Assembly (NCBI GenBank): GCA_001642005.1
Contig: LWCA01000169.1
Location: 1 to 44,834, forward strand
Length of the DNA: 44,834 nt
Reading direction: 5' to 3'
From: Intoshia linei
Taxonomy: Eukaryota; Orthonectida; Rhopaluridae
The notes beneath the pieces are model-generated. The model was not told where the DNA came from. It saw nothing but the letters and a program-made list of their open reading frames with translations, and made no database searches. A program made the position numbers and the translations under genes. Each line of letters opens with the position of its first letter. Position 1 is the stretch's first letter. This document shows positions 113 through 44,710 of the stretch, piece by piece.

Positions 113-3100
113 CTTATTTCTCCAAAAACGGAACCTTGTTCAAGTGTACCCAGCAAATGTCCTTTGTCGTCTAATACATCACACCTCCCGTATGCTATTA
201 TGTACATTTCGTTGCCGATTTCTCCCTTTTTACAAATTATATCACCTGGAGTGAAAACTGTTGATTTGAAGTATTTCATCAAATTCAATATCAGGGACAT
301 TTCACTTTTCTAATTGGTTAATAATAATATGATAATAATTTACTTCAAATAACGAAATATTTTGGATTGTCTCATAATTAACAGCAATTAATACAGTCAC
401 TTTTAAATTTTCTTGTAAAGTATCCAGATATACAAACTCGTCTAAAATTAATCATTTGTTAAAAAGTTAAAATTAGTTGCTAATATTTAATTTTCTACAT
501 GGGTTCTCAACCTTTTTAAAAGGATCACACTTTTTCTTCTGACAGTATTCATGATTCAGTGAACCCATATAATAATAGTGTAATAATAATTAAAGGCCAC
601 ATAATTGACACCCCTGATATAATTGCAATCTGTAAAGCAGGGAATAAACAATTAATAAATAACGATTCATCTTTAATTTTGTCTGAATTTCTAAATTTTA
701 GAGCAGTGGTTCCCGATTAGGGGTTCTTAAACCCCCTGGGGGTCAAAAACTATATTCTTTGGAAAAGTAGCGGATCTAGGTGGGTGAGGCGGCGATATTG
801 GTGTTTTAAAAGTCTACACATTTTACTCTCGTAAATAAAATGGCACAAACAAAATTAAAATTAAAAAACTGGAACATTCCTTAAAATGTGGTACAAAAAA
901 AAATTTCCTAAAACCCTCTAGAAAATATGATAACAAAAATCCCTAAAACTCTCTTAAAAAGATTATAAAAGTTTTTTTATTCTGAAGACGTCACTTTGTT
1001 AGATCAAAATTTTTTGTAATATCTGGAGATAATGAACTGTAATTTTTTTTAAAATTCTGGAACTATTTTCATTCTTTAAAAAAAGGGTCATTTTGGATTT
1101 TGAGACTGAATACATAACTTTTTGAAATTTAAATTTATGACATTTGTTTTTTAAACTATAGAACCCGTTTGATTTTCAAAGAAAGGATAATTAGAGTTTT
1201 TGGCTGGTAAGATATAAGTTTCTGAGATTAAAATTAATCTTAATTTCACCACCGGAAACAACTTTAATAGAAATATGTAATTTTTTAAACTCTAAGACCC
1301 TTAGTTCTTGAAATAAACGATAACTGACAGCTAGACAAACAAAGAGTTTAATATAAGTTAGGATATTATATTTTACTAGGTGGACTGTTATGTACTACGT
1401 ACAAACAGGACCTACCTCTGCAGAGGGCACATTTTTATTATACTTAAAAAATAAATTCACGTTGAAAATCTAATTTAAAAATCCTACTATTCACTATTAT
1501 CAATCCTTTAAAGGAGTGGTTCCCAAATTTGTGTCAGATGGACCATCATATCACATTACTTTTTACTTTAAAGTGAATTATTCCATCTTAATTTTTTGTT
1601 TGTTAACATTTAAAAATAAAGTAAAAACATTTCAATCCTAAAAATTGCTTTTCAAAAAGAGGGACAACTGGGGTTTTTAATCCGCAAGATGTGAGTTTGG
1701 GAGGTTGAAATTATGTTTGCGAACACCCCGGAAAAAACTGTAATTGAAATCTGGACTTTATAAAATTCTAGACGGGTAGTTATTTAAATAAAGCTGGACA
1801 CACTGACACACACATAAAAATCGCGTAGCATATTATATAAGTTAGGATAAATTATTCATTTACCCCATGAGAAGCACTGATCTAAACGGGAACATTTTAT
1901 AAAAGTAAGTTTTAAAATCTTTTTTGATTTTATCAACTTTATTCATTTTTTTTAATGATTGAACCGAGCTACAATGTACTTTACCCTTAGAAGGATAAAA
2001 GACATCCAATCATATATGCCTCTGGTATGTACAATCTACACTGTGGATAGCAAAATCTGACCCAAAACGTTTAAATTCAAAATCACCTATACAATTTTGA
2101 ACAGTCCAAGTATATTTGAACCAATTATTGACTTTTCCACATAATGTATCTGATTGAACATTTTTCATGTATTTTTTCACATTATCATTGTAATAATTGA
2201 ATTGAGTCAAATTTATATTTGCAGATAAAATAATTTCTCTAACCTAATTATTTTTAAAGTCTTACAAAAAAACTTACTTGTCCAATCAAAATTGAAAATA
2301 TAATGACCCCAAACAGCCAATAAAAAGTCATTACAAGAATCTCAAAGGTAGTTTCTACTTTTCTGACGTTACCGATAGATGAAGAGGTTTTAAGAATCAT
2401 AAAAATCCCCATTATATAACTAAATGCAAGATTACATATGCAAACTACATTTAAACGGATCATTAAATCCCGAATAAGTCCAATTATTAAGACCAATTCC
2501 CTCGTACACACTGGCTTGATAATATGAAATGGTTTGTAAATGCATCAAATAAATCATGTAGAATATATTTTTAAACAGCCGGAGCAAATAAACATTGCTA
2601 AGCCGATACTCGTACAAATCAAAAAAGTTGTTGAAAGGATAAAAGTACAATATCCTATTCAACATGAAAATGGTATGATAGTGTCCAAAATGATGAAATA
2701 ATTTAATAAAATGATCAAATGGTATTATGGAAGCAAAGGCAAGCTAAATAAAAATTTATTAACAAGTTTATAAACATCAAGTGTATAAATATATTCCGAT
2801 TGGAAATCGAATTAACAGACCAATTATTGAGAAAAATATCTATAAATGTTGAAAAAATTAAAAAAGCAAAAACTAACAAACCTGAAAAATTAGTAAGTTT
2901 CTGACCAAGATTTTTTCATGAGTAGGACCAAAAAGTCTAATGTAAGCAACGATAATTGTAAAATTACTAAATTCTAATGAATCATTTTTATCACTGAAAA
3001 AATGGTAGATTTTCAAATTAAAATCTCGCTTGTCGATTTTAACATGCACTAGTCCAAATTTGTAAAACATGTAAAGTATAAATCTTCCAACATTCCCAAT

Positions 3101-5717
3101 AAATTGTAAATTGCTTGACGCCATGCTCATTTCCAATAAATTAGTATTTTTGTTAAGTTTTGGAAGTCGGTGTCGAGGACAAGGTAAAAATTTAAATATT
3201 TGAGGACACGAAAACAAAAAATTAATAATTTGAGGGACCATGAGCAATAGTAAAGTTTTTGAAAAATGTCCAATTATTGAAACGGATGAAAATAAGACCC
3301 CAGCAAAGTAACAATATGTGTCTCCGACAAATATCTTTGCGGGGTATTTGTTCATTCGGTAGAGAGGCACAGAGATAATAATGAACGGGAATGTAATCAT
3401 ATAAACAAGAATAGCATTCTCTATGGAAAATTCATTGACGATATGAGCTACCATTTCATAAATAATTATAAAAATGGCAATTATAATAGATTGACCAACT
3501 TCTATCCCATTTACTCCAGCCAAAATATTTACAGCATTTGTCGAAAATATAATAAGCATCGACATGAAAACATAGTATAAAATTCCTAGATTGCAATATA
3601 TTACAGTTGAACCCATTTACCTATATCCATATATGCCACAGTAAAAAATCTGAGAGGCCACGGTATTTTTATGGAAGTTTGATCAAATGTTATTCGGTAA
3701 ACCATCAGTAACGGAATAGAGGCAAATAATGGAAAACACATCTTGTGTTTCCATTTTAAATCCAGCACGTCATCTATGAACCCAAGAAGGGTTATGGAAG
3801 TAACCGATAATAGAATTGTCAAAAATTGAATTAGCTAAACGTTTTCAAAATAACAAATGAAATTTTAACGGTACCTCTTCAAATGGATTGCCTAAAAAGT
3901 TGTGGGCAGAATGGACAAAGTAATGGTATATTGGTATACACAAAAACAAAATTATTATGTAGTAGATTGCAGCGAATACTCCTGTTCCTTCTGATCTTGG
4001 AATAATGTTTTTAAATTTAAATTAATTTCAAAGTACATTTTTATTTTTGAAGTTTTATTCATATCAATCCCGTAAATGTTTGCATCTATCAACATTTTTG
4101 AATATGTGGGTAAGGATTTCCAAAGGTGGTAGGTTAAAATATACGTAATTGCCAATAAAATTATAAAAAAATCAATATTGTAGTCAAATATCATCTTTAA
4201 TTTTGATACAAATCTTATTGAGTTTGTTTGATAAATTTGAGAAATAAGTTTGTCGCATGCTATGGAAATCAACTTGGTTTAGAAATTAACAAAAATTCTC
4301 TAAGAAGTAGAAATTTTGAATTTACAATTTAATAACCCGGATTTACATTATGTACGTTATTTTAACACATTGGGACTCTGACACGTTTATGCGTCAAAAT
4401 TATGTTTCGAATATTTTTAAATTCGTAATTTCAAAATAGATTTATAGCCGTTTCCATGAATGGATTATTAGTACCTTTGGCTGATGTTGTAGCTAATGTA
4501 TTTGACTATCACTTTTCTAAAAACATTTTTCTCGAGTATAGTTTTGCCAACAATTAATTAAAAAATTTTTAAAATTTGAATTAAAAAAAAATACATATAT
4601 TAATAATTATTAATTAATAATATATTATTTAAATTAACAATTATTTAATTAAATTATATATTATTTAAAAATTAACTATATTACACAAAATAGTTATGAT
4701 ATTCAGAATATAATTTTTTAAATGCTCAATTTGGGTAAATGGCCCAGAGGGACCTCGGAGTAAAGTAGGTTAGGATCTGCTTGTGATACACACTAATTAT
4801 AATTAATGATTTAAAATACCTTAAATTGAAAAGATTTCAAGTATTCTTTATACAAAAACCTCACATCAGTCTATTGAGTAATTTAAATTGCATTATATTA
4901 CAAGATAAAATTGTACCTTTAAATATCCATTGAATAATTTTCTAACTGTAGGAAAAATCCAAAAAATATCAATAATGTAAATAAAATCTGTAAAAATATC
5001 AACATAAAACCAAAAATTGTCAAAAACAGAGTAATTGGTTATGAAACAATTAATGTCGGTAACATATTTAACATTTTCTACGGAAATGGCATTTGATTTG
5101 TACTTTTGTTTTGTAATTATAATATAATTGACTAAAAGTTTTTGCAGAGTAATGGCATCTTGATTAGTAAAGTTCCTTAAAATATGATCAAATAATGTTA
5201 CCGACCCGTTATTTTTTCTATAATATTTGAAAGAATCAGCCAACCCATGATAATGGCTATAAATATCTAATTTAGCTTGATCAGTGAGACCTTTCAAACT
5301 ATTCTTATTATTTGGTAAAAATGTTTCAAATAAAAAATTATAAGAACACTCTTTTTCGTTGACATTTTGGATATCATGATAATTGAATTCTGTCGCTTCA
5401 ATTCCATAAAGTCCTTCCAGTTTCTTATTGAATGAAACTATATATTTATTTTTACAATAAAAAGAATAGGAGCATGATTCAGTGAAACCCAATCTGAATG
5501 GTATAGTGAAAATCTTGTATAAGAATGCTAAGAATATGATCACACACCATATTTGATATATTATTGATTCTCGGTTTATTGATGCAATCGGAAAGTTGTC
5601 TTCAATTTTTTTTTCCTTTATTATCAATACATTTTTTAAATTTTCTTTACTAAATTCAAAATTTCGTATTGGTTCTACTTTACATTTTTTTTTAATTTTT
5701 TTTAACTTGACATGCAT
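113..5717 (-). CDS. Cyclic-nucleotide-gated cation channel, beta-subunit-like (3' end beyond left edge)
   Basis: Exons read on the minus strand: 5717-4917, 4870-4820, 2743-2436, 2419-2278, 2243-about 2010, [a micro-exon of about 10 residues not found], 309-113; the donor at 113 continues outside the window. Order of parts: cytoplasmic N-terminus, S1 (IYQIWCVIIFLAF), S2, S3/S4 (ASIIPFDHF... MLNRILYF), S5, pore, S6 (LFGVIIFSILIGQV), C-linker (KVNNWFKYTW) and the start of the cyclic-nucleotide-binding domain (CKKGEIGNEMYII, GSVFGEI). These match CNG channels, and the pore SIGNV, the GQ(V/M)R step after S6 and CKKGEIG point to the beta (CNGB/TAX-2) type. Expected role: modulatory subunit of a cGMP/cAMP-gated sensory channel in the plasma membrane. 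Odd points: an S1-S2 loop of roughly 130 residues, a frame jump near 2436-2419, and a complete ALG7 gene inside the intron 4819-2744. An acceptor-like tract ends one base before the ATG at 5717, so an upstream exon is possible. Confidence 0.88.
880..1330 (-). repeat. Dispersed repeat family A, inverted, decayed copy
   Basis: Contains the reverse complement of the family hallmark near 990-1020 (gacgtcactttgttagatc... versus gcaaagtgac..cttcacgg in plus copies), spaced T-rich blocks, and a ggtcaaaa-like block. Lies in a CNG intron. Confidence 0.5.
1380..1850 (-). repeat. Dispersed repeat family A/B, inverted, nearly full copy
   Basis: Reverse-complement match over most of its length to 31376-31780 and 35880-36115 (gtacgtagtacataac, tagtgaatagtaggattttta, gggaaccact blocks) and, at its far end, to 40040-40160 (the atgctacgca and cagtcttagaattttataaagtcc blocks). 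This copy shows that the separate shorter blocks belong to one element of at least 470 bp. Confidence 0.7.
2755..2760 (-). promoter_or_regulatory. Poly(A) signal of ALG7 inside the CNG intron
   Basis: AATAAA lies 16 nt after the ALG7 stop and about 10 nt before the AG (2745-2744) that starts the next CNG exon. Cleavage the usual 10-30 nt downstream would fall in or next to that CNG exon, so ALG7 and CNG transcripts should overlap or compete. Confidence 0.55.
2777..4272 (-). CDS. ALG7: UDP-GlcNAc:dolichyl-phosphate GlcNAc-1-phosphotransferase (DPAGT1/ALG7)
   Basis: Five exons: 4272-4037, 3995-3875, 3834-3621, 3585-2882, 2839-2777, with introns of 41, 40, 35 and 42 nt; the joined frame encodes 445 aa (human enzyme about 408). 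It makes GlcNAc-PP-dolichol, the first step of N-glycan precursor assembly, in the ER membrane. Family motifs are all present: MNKTSK near the N-terminus, GFIDDVLDLKWKHK with the metal-binding Asp pair, NAVNILAGVNGIE, FVGDTYCYFAG, and the uridine-site loop PCPRHRLP, spread over many hydrophobic segments. The final small exon (IFFSIIGLL...) matches the usual last membrane helix. The start at 4272 is the first ATG in frame; a second Met 26 codons on is also possible. The gene lies wholly inside a CNG-channel intron on the same strand; its stop is 33 nt upstream of that intron's 3' splice site. Confidence 0.97.
4556..4680. repeat. Low-complexity A/T tract
   Basis: About 125 bp almost entirely A and T (attaattaataatatattatttaa-like runs) between CNG exon 2 and the ALG7 start. 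It may lie in the ALG7 upstream region; no specific motif is identifiable. Confidence 0.7.
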
Positions 5718-6349
5718 TCTGAAACAGGAATATAAATAACTATTAAAGCATTATCAATATCGGTAAATATAAATAGGATGTGATTAATTATTTTGTGACT
5801 ACCCAATATTTAATCAATACAATTTACAATAAATTTGATATATAATTATATAAACTTGAAACGAATATATAATTAAGGAATATTAATAGTAAATATATAT
5901 CATCAACATGCACTGCAAATTACGTGTACGTATTTTAATTTAAAAGTATTTTACTAATTATATCCAACAGCCTACATGTATTTTTTATATATAAGAGGGA
6001 GTGAATAATTATTCATTATAGGCAGTTTGAATAGTAGAATTGTAAAATACAATTTCTGGAATTAATTATAATATAAATATTTAATTATATTTTGGTACAA
6101 AAGTAAAATTAATTTTTTGTTAATAACACAGTCCAACAAAAAAACAATTTTTTTAATGAAAGAGTTAAATTTAGTGCACCTTGAAGATATTTGTTTCTTA
6201 ACAAAATCAAAATTTTGTTCATATAACGTCCAGAGTTTTTTTAAAATACATCAAATTTTCGAAAAAGTGCCTAAAATAAGCATATTTGTAGGTCGTTAGA
6301 AATCCTTAACTTATATAACATGGAATGTCTGTGTGTGTTACCGTATATT

Positions 6350-6760
6350 TAAAAAATTAACAATCGTAGAATTTAAAAAATCCAATTTCTAATACAGAAT
6401 TTCGCAGAGATATTGATATCTATTTTTCAGTTAAGAATTCGAGTCATTCAGGGTCAAAACCGCATATTACCCTTTGTTTTAAAAATTAAACATGTCCTAA
6501 AATTTTATCAACATAAATTCTGGCATACTTTTTTAAATCATAAGAATTATCATAAATAGCAACCTTAAAAAAGTGCATTTTCACGATCAAAACCCAAATT
6601 ACCCTTTTTTTAAATGAAAACAACACTAGAAATTTTAAAAAAATTACAGATGATACAGTTATATTCAGTTAACACACACAAAAAATTTCAATCAGCAAAG
6701 TGACGCCTTCACGGTTAAAAAAGCACTTTATAATAAAGTTTATTATTCATTTTTTTATTT
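6350..6760 (+). repeat. Dispersed repeat family A copy
   Basis: Well-preserved copy: ggtcaaaacc..attaccct blocks repeated, aaattctggcata, then atacagttatattcagttaacac, caaaaaatttcaatc, gacgccttcacggttaaaaaagcac. The same order of blocks is found inverted at 42190-42520 and in plus orientation at 10780-11230. Confidence 0.75.
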
Positions 6761-6976
6761 CGAAACTATTTTAATTAAAATAAAAAATTTAAAATTATTA
6801 ATGTGGTACAATTGAAAAAAGATTATTCTGATACAGCTTATTCCAGTTGATATAAATACAAAATTTAAACCTCAGAAATCTACGCATTCTTGGTGAAAAA
6901 TAACTTTTAATATAATATCAATCAATATTTTTTCTAATGTTCTACAATTTTGTTATCATCATTTTTATATTTATTA

Positions 6977-7130
6977 CAGGGGTGCCCACACCTTTTTTAC
7001 AGCAGACCGGTAATAAATTTATCACGGATCGTTAGATTGAAATTACTGAGCAACCTTAGAAAAGATTTAATAAAAAACGTATTAAATTGACTTTTCATTT
7101 GTAAAAATAAAAATTCGGTGCACACCCCTA
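6977..7130. mobile_element. Small hAT-like MITE
   Basis: Ends are imperfect inverted repeats (CAGGGGTGCCCACACC at the left; the right end reads back as TAGGGGTGTGCACCG). 154 bp, no coding capacity, and no clear 8-bp target duplication, so the assignment is tentative. Confidence 0.45.
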
Positions 7131-8023
7131 ACAATACGACGCTGCGCCACTGATAAAAAGCAATTATTAATGTCAATTAACGAAATGCCATTAGAGTATG
7201 TATTTAAAAAACCCAGCTTGATTTTAATTTAGATCAATAACGTTTAAAGTCATATGCAGCTGCAAATCCTAGATAGTAGAGATAAGTAAAATTTTACCCT
7301 AACAAATAATATAATGAAATAAGTGGGAATTACTTTTTTTAATCTATAATATTGCAACTTGCTATTCATAGACGATAAGGATAAGAAAAAATAAAAATTG
7401 GTAATCATGTCAAATACAATAAAAAGTTATCGGCATCCATTTGATTTTGTAAATTACTTTCAGACAGCGTTAATTTTTAAATGTACTTAATTATAAAAAT
7501 TATTGCTTAATAGTGTTCTTTTTGTATTTTTAATAAAAAGAGAAACAATTAAACATTATGTTTTTACATGCCAATAACTTGACTGTTAAAATGAATTGAA
7601 ATGTCCAGACTATTTGGATATACACTTGTACTTTTTAAAAATGATAATAATTCAATTTTTATCATTTCGAAAATTATCAATTCAATTTTGACTTTAAATA
7701 CAATTGCCTAATCAATACAATTGAAAATTAACAAGTAATGTTTTAATTTTGTAATATGTAATTACTACATTGAAAAATAAATACCGACACGCACTTATTG
7801 ACATTTATACAATACATCACTGTCACTGTAAAATGTTGGTTTGACTCGGTTTGTTGCATAATGTTAATTCATTAGGGATGTTTAGTTTACTCGATACATC
7901 TCATAAATTTAATGCAATTTATTGTCTCATTAAATTTCATGTTTACAAGTTAAACTTAAATTGTTTATAAATTAATTTGTAGGAAAATTGTTTCTAAATA
8001 CATATTATCAAAATTGGTTTATA

Positions 8024-11000
8024 ATGATTACAGAAAATGATGAATATTTGGTTCAAAATTGTCACGGTATGAATTATTCTTTTTTTATATCATTTTATCA
8101 TTTTATAATTATTTTTTGTTAATAATCATTTTTAGTAATTAAAAATATGAAAAAGAAAAAATATACTAATTTTAAAGTACCTCTAAAATATCATACCGTT
8201 AATTTCAATTCCAATTTAATAAATTTCGATTTATCTAATCGGTATAGATCCAAATTTGAAAAAACCAATAGAAATAAAAAAAAATCTTCATTCGTCTCTA
8301 GAGAATTTAAAAAAAAATCTTTTAAATTTTCTAAAAACAATTTAACAAAATGTTTTAAATTTCAACCTGATTTTAAGTTGACACATGAAAATCAATTTCG
8401 TATCTATAAAAGAGGTTTAATTATTTTTTTTCGTTTTATTGTTTCTTAGATTCTGATCCAAATTTTTATGAAAATACAAGTGTTAAAAGAAATTTGAATT
8501 GTTCTGACAATTGTTATTCCGGTAATGTATCATTTATAATATCTATATTAGGATTATTAATGGGTTGGGTTCATCAATTTAAATTTAATTTCAATCAGTT
8601 AGTTTATTAATAATTATTCATTTATCCATTATCATTTATTTATTTATATCAATTTATTCGATTAAATCAAGGTACTAAGATTTAAGACTTGCATAAATAA
8701 AAACTTGCATGCTTATGAATTTGCTACACAATCAAAAATTGTGAAATATTAATAATAAAAAAAATTTTTAATTAAAATAACGTTCCCCAATTTTCCATAT
8801 AATCGGTCCGACCGGTGGGCGCAAATTTTTGTCAACACTAAGGTTTGATTTTTTTAATAATTTAAAAAATTTTAAAAATGAGACTGGTCATAAAAATTGA
8901 TTATAAACATAATTAAAAGAGAAATAATGGACACTAAAATGTATAATGAAAATTAAGATATGAGGCACTTTAAAAATATTTCAATATTCATGTTTGTAAA
9001 TTGACTTCACCGTATTTGCTTGCCAGATTCGATACGGGCCATTTCCCAGTTTATAAATAAAATTACTTCCTGTTAATTCTGTTTTTTGTTATTTCATAAT
9101 TCAAATCATTAATTTTTAGAGAACGTATACGATATGGCAATGCCGTCCATGAAAGGTTATAATAAAAATGTTCATTGTAAAAGTTTTAACTCAATTTTAT
9201 TAAAAATATATATTTCATGGAATATTTTAATATTAATCAATAATTTCAAGGTATATCAAACACTCTACCCAAAAGAATATATTATTCAAATGATAGAAAT
9301 AACCCGTCGATGGGAATGATTAAATTGAATAATGAAAAAGGCTCATTGAACGGTTCATTAATATATATTATTTAATTTGAATGTACATTGTAATTCATAA
9401 AACAATACACGGGTTGACATTTATCTGTTTCAGTTAAAAATTTTCTTGGTGTATCCACCCATACCGACCGTTAATATTTAAAAAATATTTTGTTGACTCA
9501 TACAATAGTCGTCTCATACACGGTCTACGGGGTTACAAGACTCCTGACTTTTTATTTCGCAGGTTATCGCAGATCGGCGATCTTATAAAATTTTATAAAT
9601 AAAAATATTTCATCTTTAATATTTAATAATAAATGAAAATTTTTAGTTGTGAAACATGTTGGAGGAAATGATTTAAAAAATATAAACAGATATGAAAATT
9701 TACCATTTAAAAAATATGAAAATATTCAGTAATTAAAAAATGTATATAATGTAAAATTTGTATAATTAGAAACATAAAAGCACTACGCCAAAATTCAAGG
9801 GAATCTATAAAATTACCAAATAAAAAGTTATTTATGTCGACAATAATATTTTCATTGGCAATGATTTTAATTTTTACGTTCATCTGCTTATTTGGTAATT
9901 TACAATTTATAATAATGTTAATATTGTTATGTATAGTAGCAAGTTTCATGCAAAGTAGAGGCAATTCTATACAAAATAACCTTCTCTCTACTACACCTAG
10001 CATAATCAATTATAATAATGCTAAAAACGTTACACAGGATTATTCCATCACTGGTTTTATTGAAATGTGGTCATCGGTTTTATACATTTTAAAATGCAAA
10101 AAGCTCATTAAAGTGCAAGTTGAAGCTCCATTTAATAATTTATTAATTTATGGTAAATTAAATTCAATTCCAACCATATACGATTATGATTTCATTAAAT
10201 ATGCTCGACCGAACATCAACCTTAATAATGTAAATTATCAAAATGTCGACCCTGATTTATATACAAATGATTCACACGTATTGGACATTTATCACGAAAA
10301 AAATGCTTTCTTTCTGTCAGATAATATTTGGTATCTGCGAATTTATAATGATTTTTCAACAAAAGCTAAATATCAATTCACTGTAGAAGGTGTCAATGGA
10401 AAATTAGATAAAGGTTAGATTTGTATCAAATTTCAGTTGTAAATCATTTTAAATGATTTATTGCTACATAATTTTTCAATTAATTTAATTTAATTATATC
10501 CAAATGTTAGATAATATATTTATAATGATAAGGGTTAATAACTTTTCTATTTAAGGGAGCCTTCATTATTCCGTTATTTACTCAAAAAAACTTTAGTTGT
10601 ACTGATTTTACTGATATTTACAAATCCTCCATTATTTGCCAATAATTTTTCAAAATAAGTTAAAAAAATGTGTTGATATCTGTTTGTTCCAGTTTATTTA
10701 AGAAGGTAAGAGGAATCGAGATGTAAAATTACATATTTCTATTACAGTTTTTTTAGAGTCATGTTTTATAGAAAATTTCATTTTTAGAAATTAAGCCCTT
10801 CAAGGTCAAAAACCCAATTGTCCTTTTTTTTAAATTCAAATACGTCCTAGAATTATAAAAAATACATCATTTCATTAAAAACCACATGCACAACATGGAA
10901 AAACCACAAATTAATTTTTTTGTAAAAATGAAAAAAGTCCTAAAATTTTATAAAACATAAATTCTGGAATAGTTTTTAAATCATAAACATTATCATCAAT

Positions 11001-23498: not shown

Positions 23499-24782
23499 TT
23501 AATTATTAACAACATAGTCGCAAATTTTGAACAAGTTATCGGTAAATATAGAAAATGAAAATTTTTCTTGAACAAGATTAATGCTATTTTTAGAAAATTT
23601 CGAGTAAAGACTATCATTAGTGATTATATCATACATGTATTGAGAAAATTGATGTGGATCATTATCACATAAAAACCCTGTTTCATCATGAACAATCGTT
23701 TCCATTGGCCCTCCACTATTGTGTGCAATCACCGGACACCCAATAGCCATGGCCTCAATAGGAACAATACCAAAATGTTCATATTGTGGGGTATATAAAA
23801 TGCACCTTGACCGTTTATATAAAAATCGTTTCATATTTTCATTAATATTTTTTAGAAAAACAACATTTTCATAAATATCTAATCTGTGCGCCATATCCGT
23901 CAATTCCTTATAATATTCAATATTTTCGGAAAGTCGTTCATCGTAGCCGCCAGCTATAACCAAATGGATATTTTTTTTAATCAACTTGTTGGAAATGAGT
24001 TTATAAAAAGCGGCCAATGCTAATACAATATTTTTCTTTTTTTCAAATCGATTCACACTGGTAATAATGACGTCATCCTGAGAAATTCCAAGTCGTTTTT
24101 CGCAAACATCGGCCTTATATTCATCATAATTTGAAGTACAAGGTACAGGATGCAGAATGACAGCATGTTTGTCGATATCTAACAAGAATTTTTGGGCAAT
24201 TTCGAGAGTATATTTGGAATTTACGATAATAAAGTCTGCTAAATTGGTAGATCGTCTCTCCCACATATTTATGAGTCTACGGTAAATAGCAAAACCATAA
24301 TCAGTATGGAGTTTACAAAGCAGCATATCCGGATAATGGCAATAAAATATTGTTTTGTAATTAAATAATCGTAGTATTGGAATAGCAGATGAAACCTAAT
24401 TGGAATATATTAGTTTACGCGTAGCATAATTTACTTGATCAATAATGACGACATCTACTTTTTTTGTTTCACTGATAATTGGAAAAAAACGATAGAATAA
24501 GTGATTACTTGTTGTTCTGAATAAGGCTATAAATATGCTGATCAGCATTATATGAAAGAATGCCAAAAGTGCATGGAATTTTCCAAATATATGTCTCGGG
24601 AACCAGTTGCAGACGGTAGTAATTTTAAATTTCTTGGTTTCTTCAAAACACCGATTTCTATCATAATGTGCGACAATAAATTCAACTTGCATATTTTTTG
24701 AAACGAGGGCTTTAGCACAATTTATCATTGCCAATTCCGCTCCGCCTATACCCAAATCAGAATGTACAAACGTTACCAACAT
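23499..24782 (-). CDS. ALG2: Alpha-1,3/1,6-mannosyltransferase ALG2
   Basis: Two exons, 24782-24435 and 24395-23499, split by a 39-nt intron after DQ; 414 aa against about 416 in human. ALG2 adds the second and third mannoses to the lipid-linked oligosaccharide on the cytosolic ER face (GDP-mannose donor). Visible: N-terminal HSDLGIGGAELAMINCA, AHYDRNRCF, then VSSAIPILRLF, TIFYCHYPDMLL, NRFEKKKNI, VIAGGYDER, and the GT-B/GT4 catalytic EX7E motif EHFGIVPIE followed by NSGGPMETI and TGFLC. The start is the only ATG before HSDLGIGG. It is head-to-head with MRPL14: 42 nt separate the two start codons. Confidence 0.97.
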
Positions 24783-32042: not shown

Positions 32043-35000
32043 TTATTTATTTTTACAATACAGCAAATTCATTGTAGCTATTTTGTATTCTTGCATTGTA
32101 TCATCATTTAAATTGTCTCGTATACTTTGTGATGCATTTTGATAACTTTTCAACATTTTATCCTAAATCAGAGTTTATATTATACACGTTATTTATTTAC
32201 TTTTTCTGTCTTACTGGTATCCAAATTATCAATATATTTTTCTATGATATTTTTTGATTTTGTCAATTCCCATTTATATTCCAATTCGTCATCCTCAGAT
32301 TTTAATTTTTCAAACGGTGCAAGCTTATGAGATTCGCGAATTAAAACATTCATCAAATATATTAAATAATCATAATTTTGTTTTTTTGTTGGGCATCTAA
32401 ATGTACATTAATCATTTTATAAAATTTTAGCATTTAATGCCTGTCACGGTTAAGCTAGTAAGAACGGATACAATATATTTTAATTCTATAAATCGCAAAA
32501 ATAAATATACAAACACTTCTATTTTTTTGTTGGTTGATTTCATTTTTAAAAAAAGGGGAAATTGGGTTTGTGATAATGAAGGATTCAATTTTAGGAAATA
32601 AAACTTAGATATAAACATCACCTGCGAAAAATTGTATTAGAAATTGGTTTTATTCAATTCTACAACTGTTAATTTTTTAACATGTGTGTAAATAAACAAT
32701 AACACACACAGACAATCAATTTTATATATATTATATACATACATACAATCATACACAAACACATACATATCAATGTAATTAAAGGATATTCATGTATTAC
32801 ATGACCAATGGTAATTATATTAATTATATAGTCATTGACCATGTTTGATTATTATTTACATTATTATAGACGTTCTCTATTTATATAGTCATGTTTGTAT
32901 TTGATATTATTATATATATTACATATCTATCATTTAGGAAAAATTATAAAATATGTTACTGTGTATGCGACCCAAAAAAAATAGAAATAGGACTAATTTT
33001 TCATTTAAGTTAAAAAAAAACTGCTGTTTTTTGCAACTAATTTTTTTTAATAAAATCGTAAAAATGGTTTCTTTGGAATCGTCGCATCACTAGTAAATGC
33101 CCATAAATTGGGAATAACTAAAACTGGTTTAAAATATTAGAATTTGCCCTCACAATGTCAATATAATGTTAATATACATATGTCATTAAGATATAAACGT
33201 CTATAACGTATGTAAATCTAACATTTACCTATCAGAAAAAAGAGAAACAGTATCATTATCTTTATTATATCTTTGTCCAAGTAAATATATTATTTTGTCT
33301 CTGGCACTCTGATTAAAAGAAAGAGAATGTAATTTGAACTAAAATAAATAGAAAAAAATATCTTAGAGAATATCTAAACCTGTACGGAAACATTACTAGA
33401 TTTATCATGTCTTATGGAAGGGCTGGAATGACAAAAATTGGAGTAAGAAACTTTGACAGGAAAATGTTTTTCTATGGCATCATCTGACAACCCTTTTGGC
33501 CAGGGAGTACAAAACTTTTTAAGCAATTTACATTGAGAATCAACATGTCGTGGTGTCAAATGTAAAAAGTTTTGTACTTTTAAAATTTCAGCATTAGCGT
33601 ATTTATTTGGAGGTATGTTTAATTTTGTATTCTAAAATGCAAAATTACATAAAATATAAAAAGTACACAATCAAATCAGTTATTTACAAGTGTGGTTTTC
33701 CAGGACCCTGAGGTATCACAACCAGGGATTGGAAATAATTGATTGGAATCAATTATTTTGTACAAATTAATTAATTGAAAAATAATTATTGAACAAACAA
33801 TTAATTTTATTTTCAATAATTTTTATCAATTAATTCCAATCCCTGATCACAACTGTGAATCTGGGGCGTGTGAAGAAATTAGTTTTTTTGTGGTCGCTTT
33901 CGAAATTGTTGATAATTAACGTTGATATGACTTTTTTAAAATACACAATAATGGACAAGAAAAATAAAATAATTGGCAATGTTTATACATTAAATCGACT
34001 ATATTTTCGGGTTCTCTGGTAGGGTATTACGTTGTGGTGTCAAATTTTAAAAAGTTCCCACACATCAGGTTATGCTGTATAACAGTGGTTTTCAACCGGG
34101 GGTCGTGAGAATTTGAACACAGTATAAAATATAAATAAAACTAAATATGCTTTTTTAATATTTTCATTTATGTGAATTGATAAGATGTTTGGAGTATATA
34201 GAAAATTTTAGGGTCGCGAAAATTTTTTATGTTTATAAGGGGGGTCGCGAACACAAAAAGGTTGAAAACCACTACTGTATAATATATTTGAGAAACGCAA
34301 TAATTTAAATGTCATCACGAGAAAAATTAAAAAATTAAATTTTTTATTAAATATACACAGCTATATTTAACATTTATATATATTAAAGTACATATCAAAC
34401 GTTTTCAAATATATTTATTTTATTTTATTTATTATACACATTTTCATCTATAATATAACTGAAATTTTGAAATATGCTAAAAATAATATCTTTAATCCTT
34501 ATTCTATCTATTGTCGATGGGTACAAAAGTACAGACTCTTTTACATCTCTCGACTATATGTGGTTTGCAAAACAGTTAATGATGTATAACAACCAATACC
34601 TAGTACATGATACACGAAAACTAGTGATATTGAATATTCTTGTTGACAGTTATGTTCATCTATTTATTGTGTTAGCACTTACGGTAATAATAGAAGCTAC
34701 ACTTAATTTTTATATATACAATTACAAAGCGTGTGTGATAAGCACATTAATTACATTACTATTACAAAACAGTTTATTATATCCACAATTTTCTTTGAAA
34801 CAATATGATTTTGATGTGCATTTGTTTTCAAAAACTGATACTGCCCATTATAGGAACTTAAAACGTATATTTATGATATTAGTGAGCTTAGTTAAAAAGA
34901 CTACGGATATTCAGATTGTGATAAAAATATTAACTTGGTATAGAATGGATACTGTTGAAAAATTCTTCAACCAAAAAATTATAATTTTACTAAATATTTC

Positions 35001-40659: not shown

Positions 40660-43600
40660 TTAGTGATTTGAGCCATACTCTGGTTGTTTAATGTGTTTAT
40701 CTTCGATATGGTTGGTTGAAAAACTTTTCATTTTGGTATGTTGACTTAGATCTTTAAGTTGATAGAAAGGTTCGATAATACAAGATTTCATACTCTTGGT
40801 GTCTTCGCAGAGAGTGATTAAATCTTCAATGTTGTTTGATTTTTCCAGTTGGCTTGATAAATGGATTCTAACTCGTTTTTTCTCTTCTTTTTTTGATTTA
40901 AAATGTAAGTTCAATTCAATATCACAACATTTACAGCACATGCATTTTAATTTATTCAACAAGTTTCCACATGTTTTTTCATTACTTAAAGATTTAAAAT
41001 CATCAATTTTATTTAATTTTCTGTATATGGGAATTATGTTCATCTTGGTTTTCTAAAAAATGTATATATTGTATTATGGGAAATGTATTACTGTAATATG
41101 TTCAATAAGATCTATTATTTTGTATTGGATCAGAATTTCTGGTTCAGTATAATTGGATTGATGTGGTTCACTTAATTGCATTTTATTTGATTTGATTAAC
41201 TGTTCCAGGGTGCCTCGTTTTTCGGTAAATATTTTTAGTTGGTTGTTGTTTATGATGGTTTGTCTTGTTAAATGCGCAATCTACGATTACATTATGTCCT
41301 GTTGATAGGGCAAGTTTTTTAGTAACCCATAAATAAAACAATCTCATGATTGCTTTAATGCAGCGGTTCCCAAATGGGGTACTGGGAATTATTTTGGGGT
41401 ACCAGCTCGTCTGATACTATGCCTCATAAATTATAGATATTTTTTAAATTCCCAAAATTAATTTGTAATAATATACTTAGTTAATTTGATAGTCTCTGAG
41501 ATTTTAAGGTTGTATATTAAATATGTATGTATGTACGTATCTATTTCGTCATTAAATTTTTAATTATTTTTTTTCAGTTTAGGGGTACCAACTGTGAAGT
41601 ATGTTGGGAACCGCTGGTTTAATGAAATAACAAATAATCCAACTACTTGTGAATATTTCGGTCTTTTTTTTAGGTCAATAAAAAAATTTCCCTAATTATA
41701 TTTTTATGTATCTCATATATTTTTACTTTTTGGGATTGTCTTTTGTCTGAACGTTGACTTTGTTGGTATATTCGGCTAAAATTAGAAACTATTACAGGTA
41801 CTGGTAAAGCAATAACTAGAACACCAGACAATGAACACAGACCTCCGATGAATTTACCAAAAACAGTTTTCGGTACCATGTCTCCATATCTAAATTTCAA
41901 TTAATTTTAAAATGATAATGTTACCCCAATGTAGTCATTGTTACAATTGTATACCAGAACGAAGCCGGTATGCTGGTAAATGTTGTTTTTGCTTCATTTT
42001 TTTCGCAATAATACATCATTGTGGCAAATATTATAATTGCCAATGAGAGCGAAAAAAGCAGGAAGCACAACTCACTAGCACAACTAAATGAAACGTTATA
42101 TAACTGGAATAAGCTCTATCAGAATAATCGTTTTTTTTAATTGTAGGACCATTAATTATTTCAAATTATTTATTTTAATAAAATAGTTTCGAAATAAAAA
42201 AAAAATGAATATTAAAGTAATTGGTTGACCGTGAAGGCGTCACTTATTCAGATTGAAATTTTTTGTGAGTCTTAACAGGATACAACTGTACCATCTGGTT
42301 TTTTTAAATTTTAGGGATGCTTTTATTTTAAAAAAAATTGGTATGTGGGTTTTGATCGTTAAAATTATATTTTTTTGTTTCCATTTATAACAATGTTTAT
42401 GATTTTAAAAACTATCCCAGAATTTATGTTTAAAAAAATTTTAGGATGTTTCATTTTTAAAACAAAGGGTAATTTGTATTTTTGACCATGAAGGTATGCG
42501 TTTCTGAGGCTGAGATTAACGACAATGTTAATGATTTTAAAACGCGTCTCCGAATGTATTTTATTACATGTTTAGGCTGATTTTTTTTAAACAAAATGAA
42601 AAATTGGTTTTTGAATTTATTGTATATTTGAATTTTATTATATTGTTTTTTTAAAATCCTGCGACTATCATTTTTTTCAATAAATGGCTACACATACTAA
42701 AAAAAACACACAGACATTCATTTTTATATAATTTTAAGTAAAGGATTATATAAAATTTTCATTTTCAAAAATTAGTCCTTCAAGGTCAAAACATAATTTT
42801 CCCACTTATTTTTAAAATAAAATGATAATATCGATGATTATAGAACAATTCGTACATCTCAGCCTCAAAAAAGTACATTTTCAAACCCTAGATTATCTTT
42901 TTCTAAAAAATGTACAGATCATACAGTTAACATGCACAAAATTTAGAATAAGTTGGAAGGATGGTGTATTAAACGAAGAATGATTGATATATTAAAATAA
43001 TGCATCCTCATTTGAATTAATCCATCTGATTTTGACCTTTTAAATTATCAATATAATTTCATTAATACTTTTATAGTTATTTATAAGCACATACTGTAAT
43101 ATTGATAAATGAATTTATGAATCTACCAGCATTATACATATACAAAGATTTTAAAACGTTAACTCTAGACTCTAAAATACTCAAAATTTTCAATTTTATG
43201 AAACTACTCAATTTAATTTAATTAAATTTGCTTTTATAATTATTTCCATTCAAACGCAGTTTAAATGATTTAGTTTAATAAAACGGATCTATATTCTATA
43301 TCAACAATTAATTACCTTTTAAGGGTGTACCCCAATATTCGCAACCCTACAACGATAATTAAATTGTATATATTAAACGTACCGGCAGAGTGTCTTGAAA
43401 ATTTGATGATTCTAAAAACTCGAAATACTCTCAAAGTGACAAAGACATTTCCTAATGTGTTTTTGTTAGGCATAATTAAAGTAATATAATAAGGTACAAT
43501 CGCCACAAAATCAACGAGTGACATGAAATTTCTAAAAAATTTGATTCTATGAGGTGATGAATACAATCGGAGAATATATTCAACGGTAAAAATAATAACA

Positions 43601-44710
43601 CACGTACTATCCACACAAAAAAATATAACGGCGTATTTGTCGCCACAGATGATGTACTGAGTAGCAGATTTGTTATCGCAGCGCATCGTTTCCAAAACAT
43701 TGACAAACACAGACAAGGCTATGAAAAAGCCAGTGACATAGTAGAAAACTAACGCGAAATTGCTGGATTGGGGATTTTCACAAGATTCCCACAATCGTTC
43801 ACGGAATGTCTTTTTCTCTATTTTATTTTTCTTGGCAGCTTTAAGTCTTCTAGCTTTATTTAGTCGATTTGTGGCTATAGATTCTCTCATGCGTGTAAGA
43901 AGAACAGAATTTGATTTTCCGAAATCTTCAGTGAGGTTATCGTAATTTTTCTCAATTTCGTGATGTTGTATGATTTGATGAGTAGAATAGATAGATTCCA
44001 GGTCAGATTCATCGGATGAGTTTTCTATGTCCAGTTTGTCTTCCGTATCTTTTGGCATACATTTAATACATACAGGATAAGTGGATAGGCAACGCGATTT
44101 TCGCATTTCCACCGATTCACGTGAATTGATTAATTTTGATTTCATTTTTTCATAAATGGATGGTTTTTTCTTCTGTTCTACTTTACTTGTGGTCTCTGCT
44201 TCGGCGGCTTCATTGATTTCATTAATTTCTCTGCGTCTAAGTTTATTAATTGTAATTAACATTAACAATGATCAATAAATATAAAAACCTTTCTCGGTAT
44301 TCTTCATGGCAGCAATCACTAATATTGTCAAATAGAATACGAAAAAATCCAATTTCGTCATCGAACAGTTTAACACAAACGTCGCGAGGGTAATGTAATT
44401 TCCCTGTTCTATAGAAATTTAAAATATAACGGAAAAGATCTGGATCACGATCAAAGAAATATTGGTTGTTTTCAGAGTCATAAAAATATTCACGCTCGTC
44501 TGACCCGAGAAGAGTATCAGGATACCAGTCTAATGTATATTTATTTACATGAAATATGGTGCCACTGACATTTATTTGTAAACGGATTTCATCAAGGTGA
44601 AGGGAAATGTTTTCGCACTTGTCGCTGGTCATTTTATTATGGAGAAAAGGTAGCCATCCAATGGTTGAAGCGCGTACTAAAACCAACCACGCAGAACTGG
44701 ACGAAATCAT
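40660..44710 (-). CDS. KCND/Shal: Shal-type voltage-gated potassium channel (Kv4)
   Basis: Seven exons: 44710-44289, 44236-43383, 43346-43316, 42083-41925, 41889-41727, 41280-41092, 41052-40660; introns 52, 36, 1232, 35, 446 and 39 nt; 736 aa. N-terminus [20 protein letters not shown] is the KChIP-binding signature of Kv4. The T1 domain ([34 protein letters not shown]) keeps the zinc site HX5CX20CC. Then [13 protein letters not shown] (S1), S2-S3, the S4 ladder [31 protein letters not shown], the pore TMTTLGYGDMVP (a 35-nt intron splits the first Gly codon) and S6 [15 protein letters not shown]. The tail keeps an [15 protein letters not shown] helix like the Kv4 HHHLLxCLEKTT segment and adds CMCCKCC. 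Role: fast A-type current. Odd: about 120 extra residues between T1 and S1, including [12 protein letters not shown]. Confidence 0.98.
41361..41616. mobile_element. hAT-like MITE, 256 bp, in Kv4 intron
   Basis: Terminal inverted repeats CAGCGGTTCCCAA and (inverted) CAGCGGTTCCCAA; flanks ctttaatg and gtttaatg form a 7/8 duplication. It accounts for more than half of the 446-nt intron. Confidence 0.9.
42180..42560 (-). repeat. Dispersed repeat family A copy, inverted, in Kv4 intron
   Basis: Near full-length inverse of 6440-6760: gaccgtgaaggcgtcac, gattgaaattttttgtg, ggatacaactgtaccatctg, gggttttgatcgt, ccagaatttatgtt, aaacaaagggtaat, ttttgaccatgaagg, in that order. Confidence 0.8.
42770..42950 (+). 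repeat. Dispersed repeat family A fragment in Kv4 intron
   Basis: Starts ccttcaaggtcaaaac, then acatctcagcctcaaaaaagtacattttc and gatcatacagttaacatgcac, as in the plus copies; decayed and in opposite orientation to its neighbour at 42180-42560. Confidence 0.55.

Follow-up and report, generated by a model that had tools for sequence, protein, structure and literature searches.

The genes encoding VAChT and ChAT lie on the same strand and both proteins serve one pathway. VAChT is located within the first intron of ChAT with its coding sequence in one exon, an arrangement conserved in nematodes, Drosophila and mammals (PMC3053374). Among the simple nested pairs counted in PMC8467205, 220 of 296 in human and 193 of 248 in mouse are on opposite strands, leaving by subtraction 76 and 55 same-strand pairs, respectively. 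In the human set described in PMC2330155, 75 nested parallel pairs were present among 749 overlapping pairs and same-strand overlaps are stated to be strongly selected against. Host genes can also undergo intron retention and cryptic polyadenylation because of the genes nested in them (PMC3192792). Since mammalian nested pairs are mostly on opposite strands and VAChT/ChAT provides a precedent, same-strand nesting is an uncommon but known kind of arrangement.

The window analysed here is the whole of contig C265 of the parasitic orthonectid Intoshia linei (44,834 nt, G+C 27%) and carries an ALG7 gene within intron 2 of a channel gene. As in other parallel nested animal genes, a complete gene lies in the intron of another in the same orientation, although here the guest stop is separated from the next host exon by only 33 nt. 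The likeness to VAChT/ChAT extends to the intronic position, whereas ALG7 has five exons in place of a single coding exon. We know of no pathway link between ALG7 and the channel. No earlier report of this nested pair was found in the literature searched, which comprised sources other than the publication that first described the genome (Mikhailov et al. 2016).

The channel host gene and its long introns

The host gene, a cyclic-nucleotide-gated (CNG) channel gene, lies on the minus strand, beginning at 5717 and running off the contig end within its nucleotide-binding domain, and its seven exons (Table 1) give 577 codons free of stops. Residues 229-577 of the spliced product give a single continuous alignment with CNGB3 (8ev8_D) that crosses both long introns (E 9.7e-63). 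When compared with solved structures the channel scored 215.8 bits against CNGB3, about 203 against CNGB1 and at most 166 against CNGA. The pore motif of beta subunits lacks glutamate, and none is present in the channel motif SSIGNV, which is aligned to ITIGGL of CNGB3; the pore and the higher CNGB scores both fit a predicted beta-type subunit. The profile PF00027 was matched over positions 3-54 of 89, the remainder falling past the contig end, and searches of other contigs with the binding-domain family and the CNGA-like tail gave no assignable 3' piece of the gene. No match to Pfam Ion_trans (PF00520) was obtained for the spliced channel at E 0.01, indicating a divergent gene, and the CNGB3 alignment covers S2-S6. 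The exon 1 and exon 3 frames taken singly likewise gave no Pfam match above cut-off.

Some details of this gene model concern its first exon and third intron. Alignment of S1 in exon 1 to CNGB3 scored 0.3 bits, non-significant alone; if it is right, approximately 149 residues between S1 and S2 would be without CNGB3 counterpart, an unusually long loop. One base before the channel ATG the stretch TTCCTGTTTCAG (5718-5730, minus strand) forms a good acceptor-like sequence (TTTCAG-A), suggesting that the 5' UTR contains an intron or that another exon lies upstream. A 16-nt intron at 2435-2420 was rejected in favour of a 37-nt intron at 2456-2420, one of 22 frame-keeping choices listed, which is gap-free against CNGB3 there and of usual size.

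Table 1. Features of the channel gene and of the ALG7 gene nested in it, in window positions
Feature	Positions	Strand	Basis
Channel (CNGB-like) exon 1, 267 codons, S2, probably S1, long S1-S2 stretch	4917..5717	-	CNGB3 alignment
Channel exon 2, 51 nt, S2-S3 linker, ends YLKSFQFK	4820..4870	-	gene model
Channel intron 2, ALG7 host, 2,076 nt	2744..4819	-	sequence
Dispersed short repeat remnant, upstream of ALG7	4662..4741	-	37 of the 40 matches listed fall at or around it (40 of 269 candidates scored)
Second decayed repeat remnant, upstream of ALG7	4362..4555	-	two other copies listed, 74-75% identical
ALG7 exon 1, ATG at 4194	4037..4194	-	gene model
ALG7 exon 2	3875..3995	-	gene model
ALG7 exon 3	3621..3834	-	gene model
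ALG7 exon 4	2882..3585	-	gene model
ALG7 exon 5 and TGA, missing in deposited protein	2777..2839	-	DPAGT1 alignment to residue 413 of 419
AATAAA, overlapping YTNAY branch-like motif TTAAT (2762-2758)	2755..2760	-	motif match only
Channel exon 3, S3-S5 and turret, starts LAFASIIPFDHF	2457..2743	-	CNGB3 alignment
Channel exon 4, pore SSIGNV, S6	2278..2419	-	CNGB3 alignment
Channel exon 5, C-linker	2087..2243	-	CNGB3 alignment
Channel intron 5, 1,645 nt, over half repeat	442..2086	-	repeat matches
Channel exon 6	344..441	-	gene model
Channel exon 7, first part of cyclic-nucleotide-binding domain	113..309	-	Pfam and CNGB3 alignment; gene runs past contig end

The intron holding ALG7 is bounded by a donor AAG/GTATTT at 4819 and the acceptor TTTTTATTTAG, whose last base is 2744. 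An earlier note on this DNA had proposed that exons 2 and 3 are consecutive in one channel gene, and this is supported by the CNGB3 alignment, which crosses their junction gap-free, and by a CNGA-like paralogue on contig C1125 of the same genome, in which the junction-flanking residues (FVKSIHLKISLLSIIPTDLF) lie in a single open frame. We regard it as very improbable that the nesting is absent, whether because the two halves of the channel come from different genes or because the contig is misassembled. In favour of this, the data come from a single assembly; against it, the single CNGB3 alignment runs through the junction, the C1125 paralogue reads contiguously across it, the window contains no Ns and there is no second close channel copy as alternative partner, the remaining channel matches in the genome (C1125 and C213) being only 27-37% identical. 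The ALG7 coding exons (4194-2777) lie entirely inside intron 2 on the strand of the channel, and the location claimed for them in a CNG-channel intron agrees to the base with our coordinates. Also as claimed, all five exons fit within its 2076 nt, with GT-AG introns and an intact frame to the TGA. Intronic nesting of ALG7 in the channel gene is real at the level of sequence and well supported by the full ALG7 frame, the open channel codons and splice sites of the usual type. That ALG7 and its CNGB-type host, whose intron 2 holds it in the same orientation, are two separate genes is in our judgement probable.

The other channel introns measure 46, 37, 34, 1645 and 34 nt, so that four of the six are in the range 34-46 nt, and the median intron given for I. 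linei in PMC6543705 is 57 bp. The length of intron 2 is accounted for by ALG7 together with the 625 nt, containing two repeat remnants, that precede the ALG7 ATG. Within intron 5 repeat matches extend over about positions 231-1142 and 1200-1254 of the intron, and the portion at 440-724 is present in high copy (76 matches listed, with 40 of 4,060 candidates scored). Among the listed copies of this high-copy dispersed repeat, identity is as high as 94-96% over about 245-285 bases, and the repeat may therefore be fairly young. No gene was found inside intron 5, where open frames are of at most 67 codons, and no open frame of more than 66 codons was present in the long gap of the CNGA-like gene on C1125 (L019, 891-2551). 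The repeat content of intron 5 suggests that long introns in the channel gene are due to inserted material. ALG7 has four introns and is therefore not an intronless retrocopy; it may have arrived by insertion of a DNA segment bearing its introns.

The ALG7 gene and deposited protein A3Q56_01984

ALG7/DPAGT1 extends from an ATG at 4194 to a TGA at 2779-2777 on the minus strand and its five exons encode 419 aa with no earlier stop, separated by introns of 41, 40, 35 and 42 nt, all GT-AG. Residues 27-413 align with residues 29-402 of 5lev (E 3.3e-84), the structure of human DPAGT1, and PF00953 (Glycos_transf_4) scored 98.4 bits (cut-off 27); full-length similarity and domain are thus both those of ALG7/DPAGT1. 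The frame and this alignment bear out the completeness attributed to the gene by the earlier note. Conserved stretches in the alignment of this putative enzyme include GFIDDVLDLKWKHK, NAVNILAGVNG and PCPRHRLPKLN. A protein search with exon 4 gave top identities in the forties among the best 120 of 3,617 proteins, the length limit of the search leaving out the 685-aa deposited protein. Searching the single I. linei assembly (34,653,042 bases, 1,319 contigs) with the PF00953 profile at E 0.001 gave two matches, both parts of this ALG7, and no second copy was found. As a housekeeping gene for which the assembly gave no second copy, and which is nested within a channel gene in the disfavoured orientation, ALG7 provides a clean natural example in a highly reduced animal.

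A search with the channel protein matched A3Q56_01984 of I. linei with 99% identity over half of the query. This deposited protein of 685 aa consists of channel exons 1-2 followed by ALG7 from its Met, and consequently carries 284 ion-channel residues at its front under an ALG7 name. It terminates in LLIFQVC, where ALG7 intron 4 has been read through to a stop, and the last ALG7 exon is missing. The acceptor implied by the join, AAATTAAAG, has no pyrimidine tract. Nine of the ten acceptors modelled in both genes end in TAG, the exception being ALG7 intron 1 with AAG. No deposited protein for channel exons 3-7 was found among lengths of 162-514 aa and about 318-1011 aa, in a search that returned one protein per channel query because its first step is word-based. 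Owing to the poor acceptor, the loss of the last ALG7 exon and the omission of channel exons 3-7, the chimera is probably a prediction error. The chimeric nature of the model is a new result, and among the concrete outcomes of the analysis the correction to A3Q56_01984 is the most useful. The remainder of the channel was not found among the deposited proteins searched.

A genuine fusion transcript of the deposited kind, if only as an alternative isoform, is unlikely; in it the donor at 4819 would be joined to an acceptor at 4195, and the promoter and first exons would be common to both products. The join is present in A3Q56_01984, an AG stands directly before the ALG7 ATG, the join is in frame, since 284 whole codons come from channel exons 1-2, and such an acceptor is possible given that ALG7 intron 1 also ends in AAG. 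Against this, the acceptor is without a pyrimidine tract, A3Q56_01984 lacks both the final exon of ALG7 and the remainder of the channel, and the ALG7 N-terminus is already normal in length without the channel extension, its residue 27 aligning with DPAGT1 residue 29. The reading of two separate genes is followed below.

The 33-nt boundary and expression of the two genes

The distance from the ALG7 stop to channel exon 3, given as 33 nt by the earlier note, was recovered exactly (2776-2744; TGTTTATAAACTTGTTAATAAATTTTTATTTAG), and the AATAAA said to lie between stop and acceptor is present (Table 1). YTNAY has three matches in this interval, and the branch-like A of TTAAT is 16 nt from exon 3. 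A further ATTAAA is found inside channel exon 3 at 2707-2702. AATAAA occurs in 201 of 3,167 windows of 33 nt on the minus strand of 5801-9000; because the DNA is AT-rich and 6.3% of such windows carry it, the motif alone is weak evidence. Cleavage falls 10-30 nt past AATAAA, which would place the expected end of the ALG7 mRNA at approximately 2745-2725, a range that starts at the splice site and reaches about 19 nt inside exon 3. The earlier note held that this end must overlap CNG coding sequence; overlap is indeed likely, but it is not forced. An interval of 33 nt suffices for an acceptor region, since short introns of both genes are complete in 34-46 nt. As the AATAAA shares these 33 nt with the acceptor and probably the branch site, formation of the ALG7 3' end may compete with channel splicing. 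With a splice acceptor and a candidate poly(A) signal packed together in this way, the boundary lends itself to testing how termination and splicing stay apart.

Separate transcription with possible interference is the most likely mode of expression on present sequence evidence. ALG7 would have a promoter of its own within the 625 nt of intron that precede the ATG, and its transcript would end near 2745-2725 through the AATAAA at 2760. Channel transcripts would cross ALG7 and be spliced from 4819 to 2744, ALG7 being discarded with the intron, and the two processes may compete for the same 33 nt. Interference of the kind described in PMC3192792 could be expected here, that work dealing with endogenous transcripts and minigenes whereas our expectation comes from the layout. 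No sign of a promoter was seen in the 625 nt before ALG7, where repeat remnants only were found; a bacterial promoter scan gave seven sites against 5.9 expected, the model being bacterial and uninformative for an animal gene.

Other modes of expression can be envisaged. The donor at 4819 can be joined in frame to either ALG7 (4194) or the channel (2743), and the poly(A) signal overlaps the branch region, so an either/or switch might yield the products of an essential glycosylation gene and of a sensory channel gene as mutually exclusive outputs from partly shared transcripts, a scheme that we think distinctly improbable. It is very doubtful that ALG7 is an operon-like intronic gene, released from the channel pre-mRNA by trans-splicing of a spliced leader to the AG that precedes the ALG7 ATG. 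Such a mechanism would be consistent with the AG abutting the ALG7 ATG and the TTTCAG-A preceding that of the channel; however, an AG within two bases was seen at only two of six starts (channel and ALG7), those without it being the starts of two tubulins, an ALG2-like gene and an ORF starting at 34474. This very small sample provides no support for general spliced-leader use. SL1 gave no match, which says little as the control was equally silent. Trans-splicing is moreover reported in PMC7854359 to be absent from the annelid Dimorphilus, as in other annelids, and orthonectids are placed within annelids in PMC6543705. Separate transcription of the two genes remains our preferred reading.

Other features of the contig

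A glycosyltransferase gene at 23499-24782 on the minus strand gave a Glycos_transf_1 match of 132 bits in its second half, the first half being without Pfam match. It is a putative ALG2, which would make it a second dolichol-pathway gene approximately 19 kb from ALG7. Pieces of a teneurin-like gene at 9750-16198 on the plus strand scored 26.9 bits against the Tenm3 galactose-binding domain, whose cut-off is 27, and also matched the FN-plug and NHL domains. Long frames past these pieces reach 19804, and the one tested (17306-19399) gave no Pfam match. A fragment of a Tc-type transposase (PF01498) is present at 21911-22219 on the minus strand. At 41781-41894, also on the minus strand, a full-length match to the Rfam potassium channel RNA editing signal scored 82.6 bits, and an Ion_trans frame lies nearby at 43312-44271; the Rfam match may be due to conserved coding sequence for a Kv pore and not to editing.
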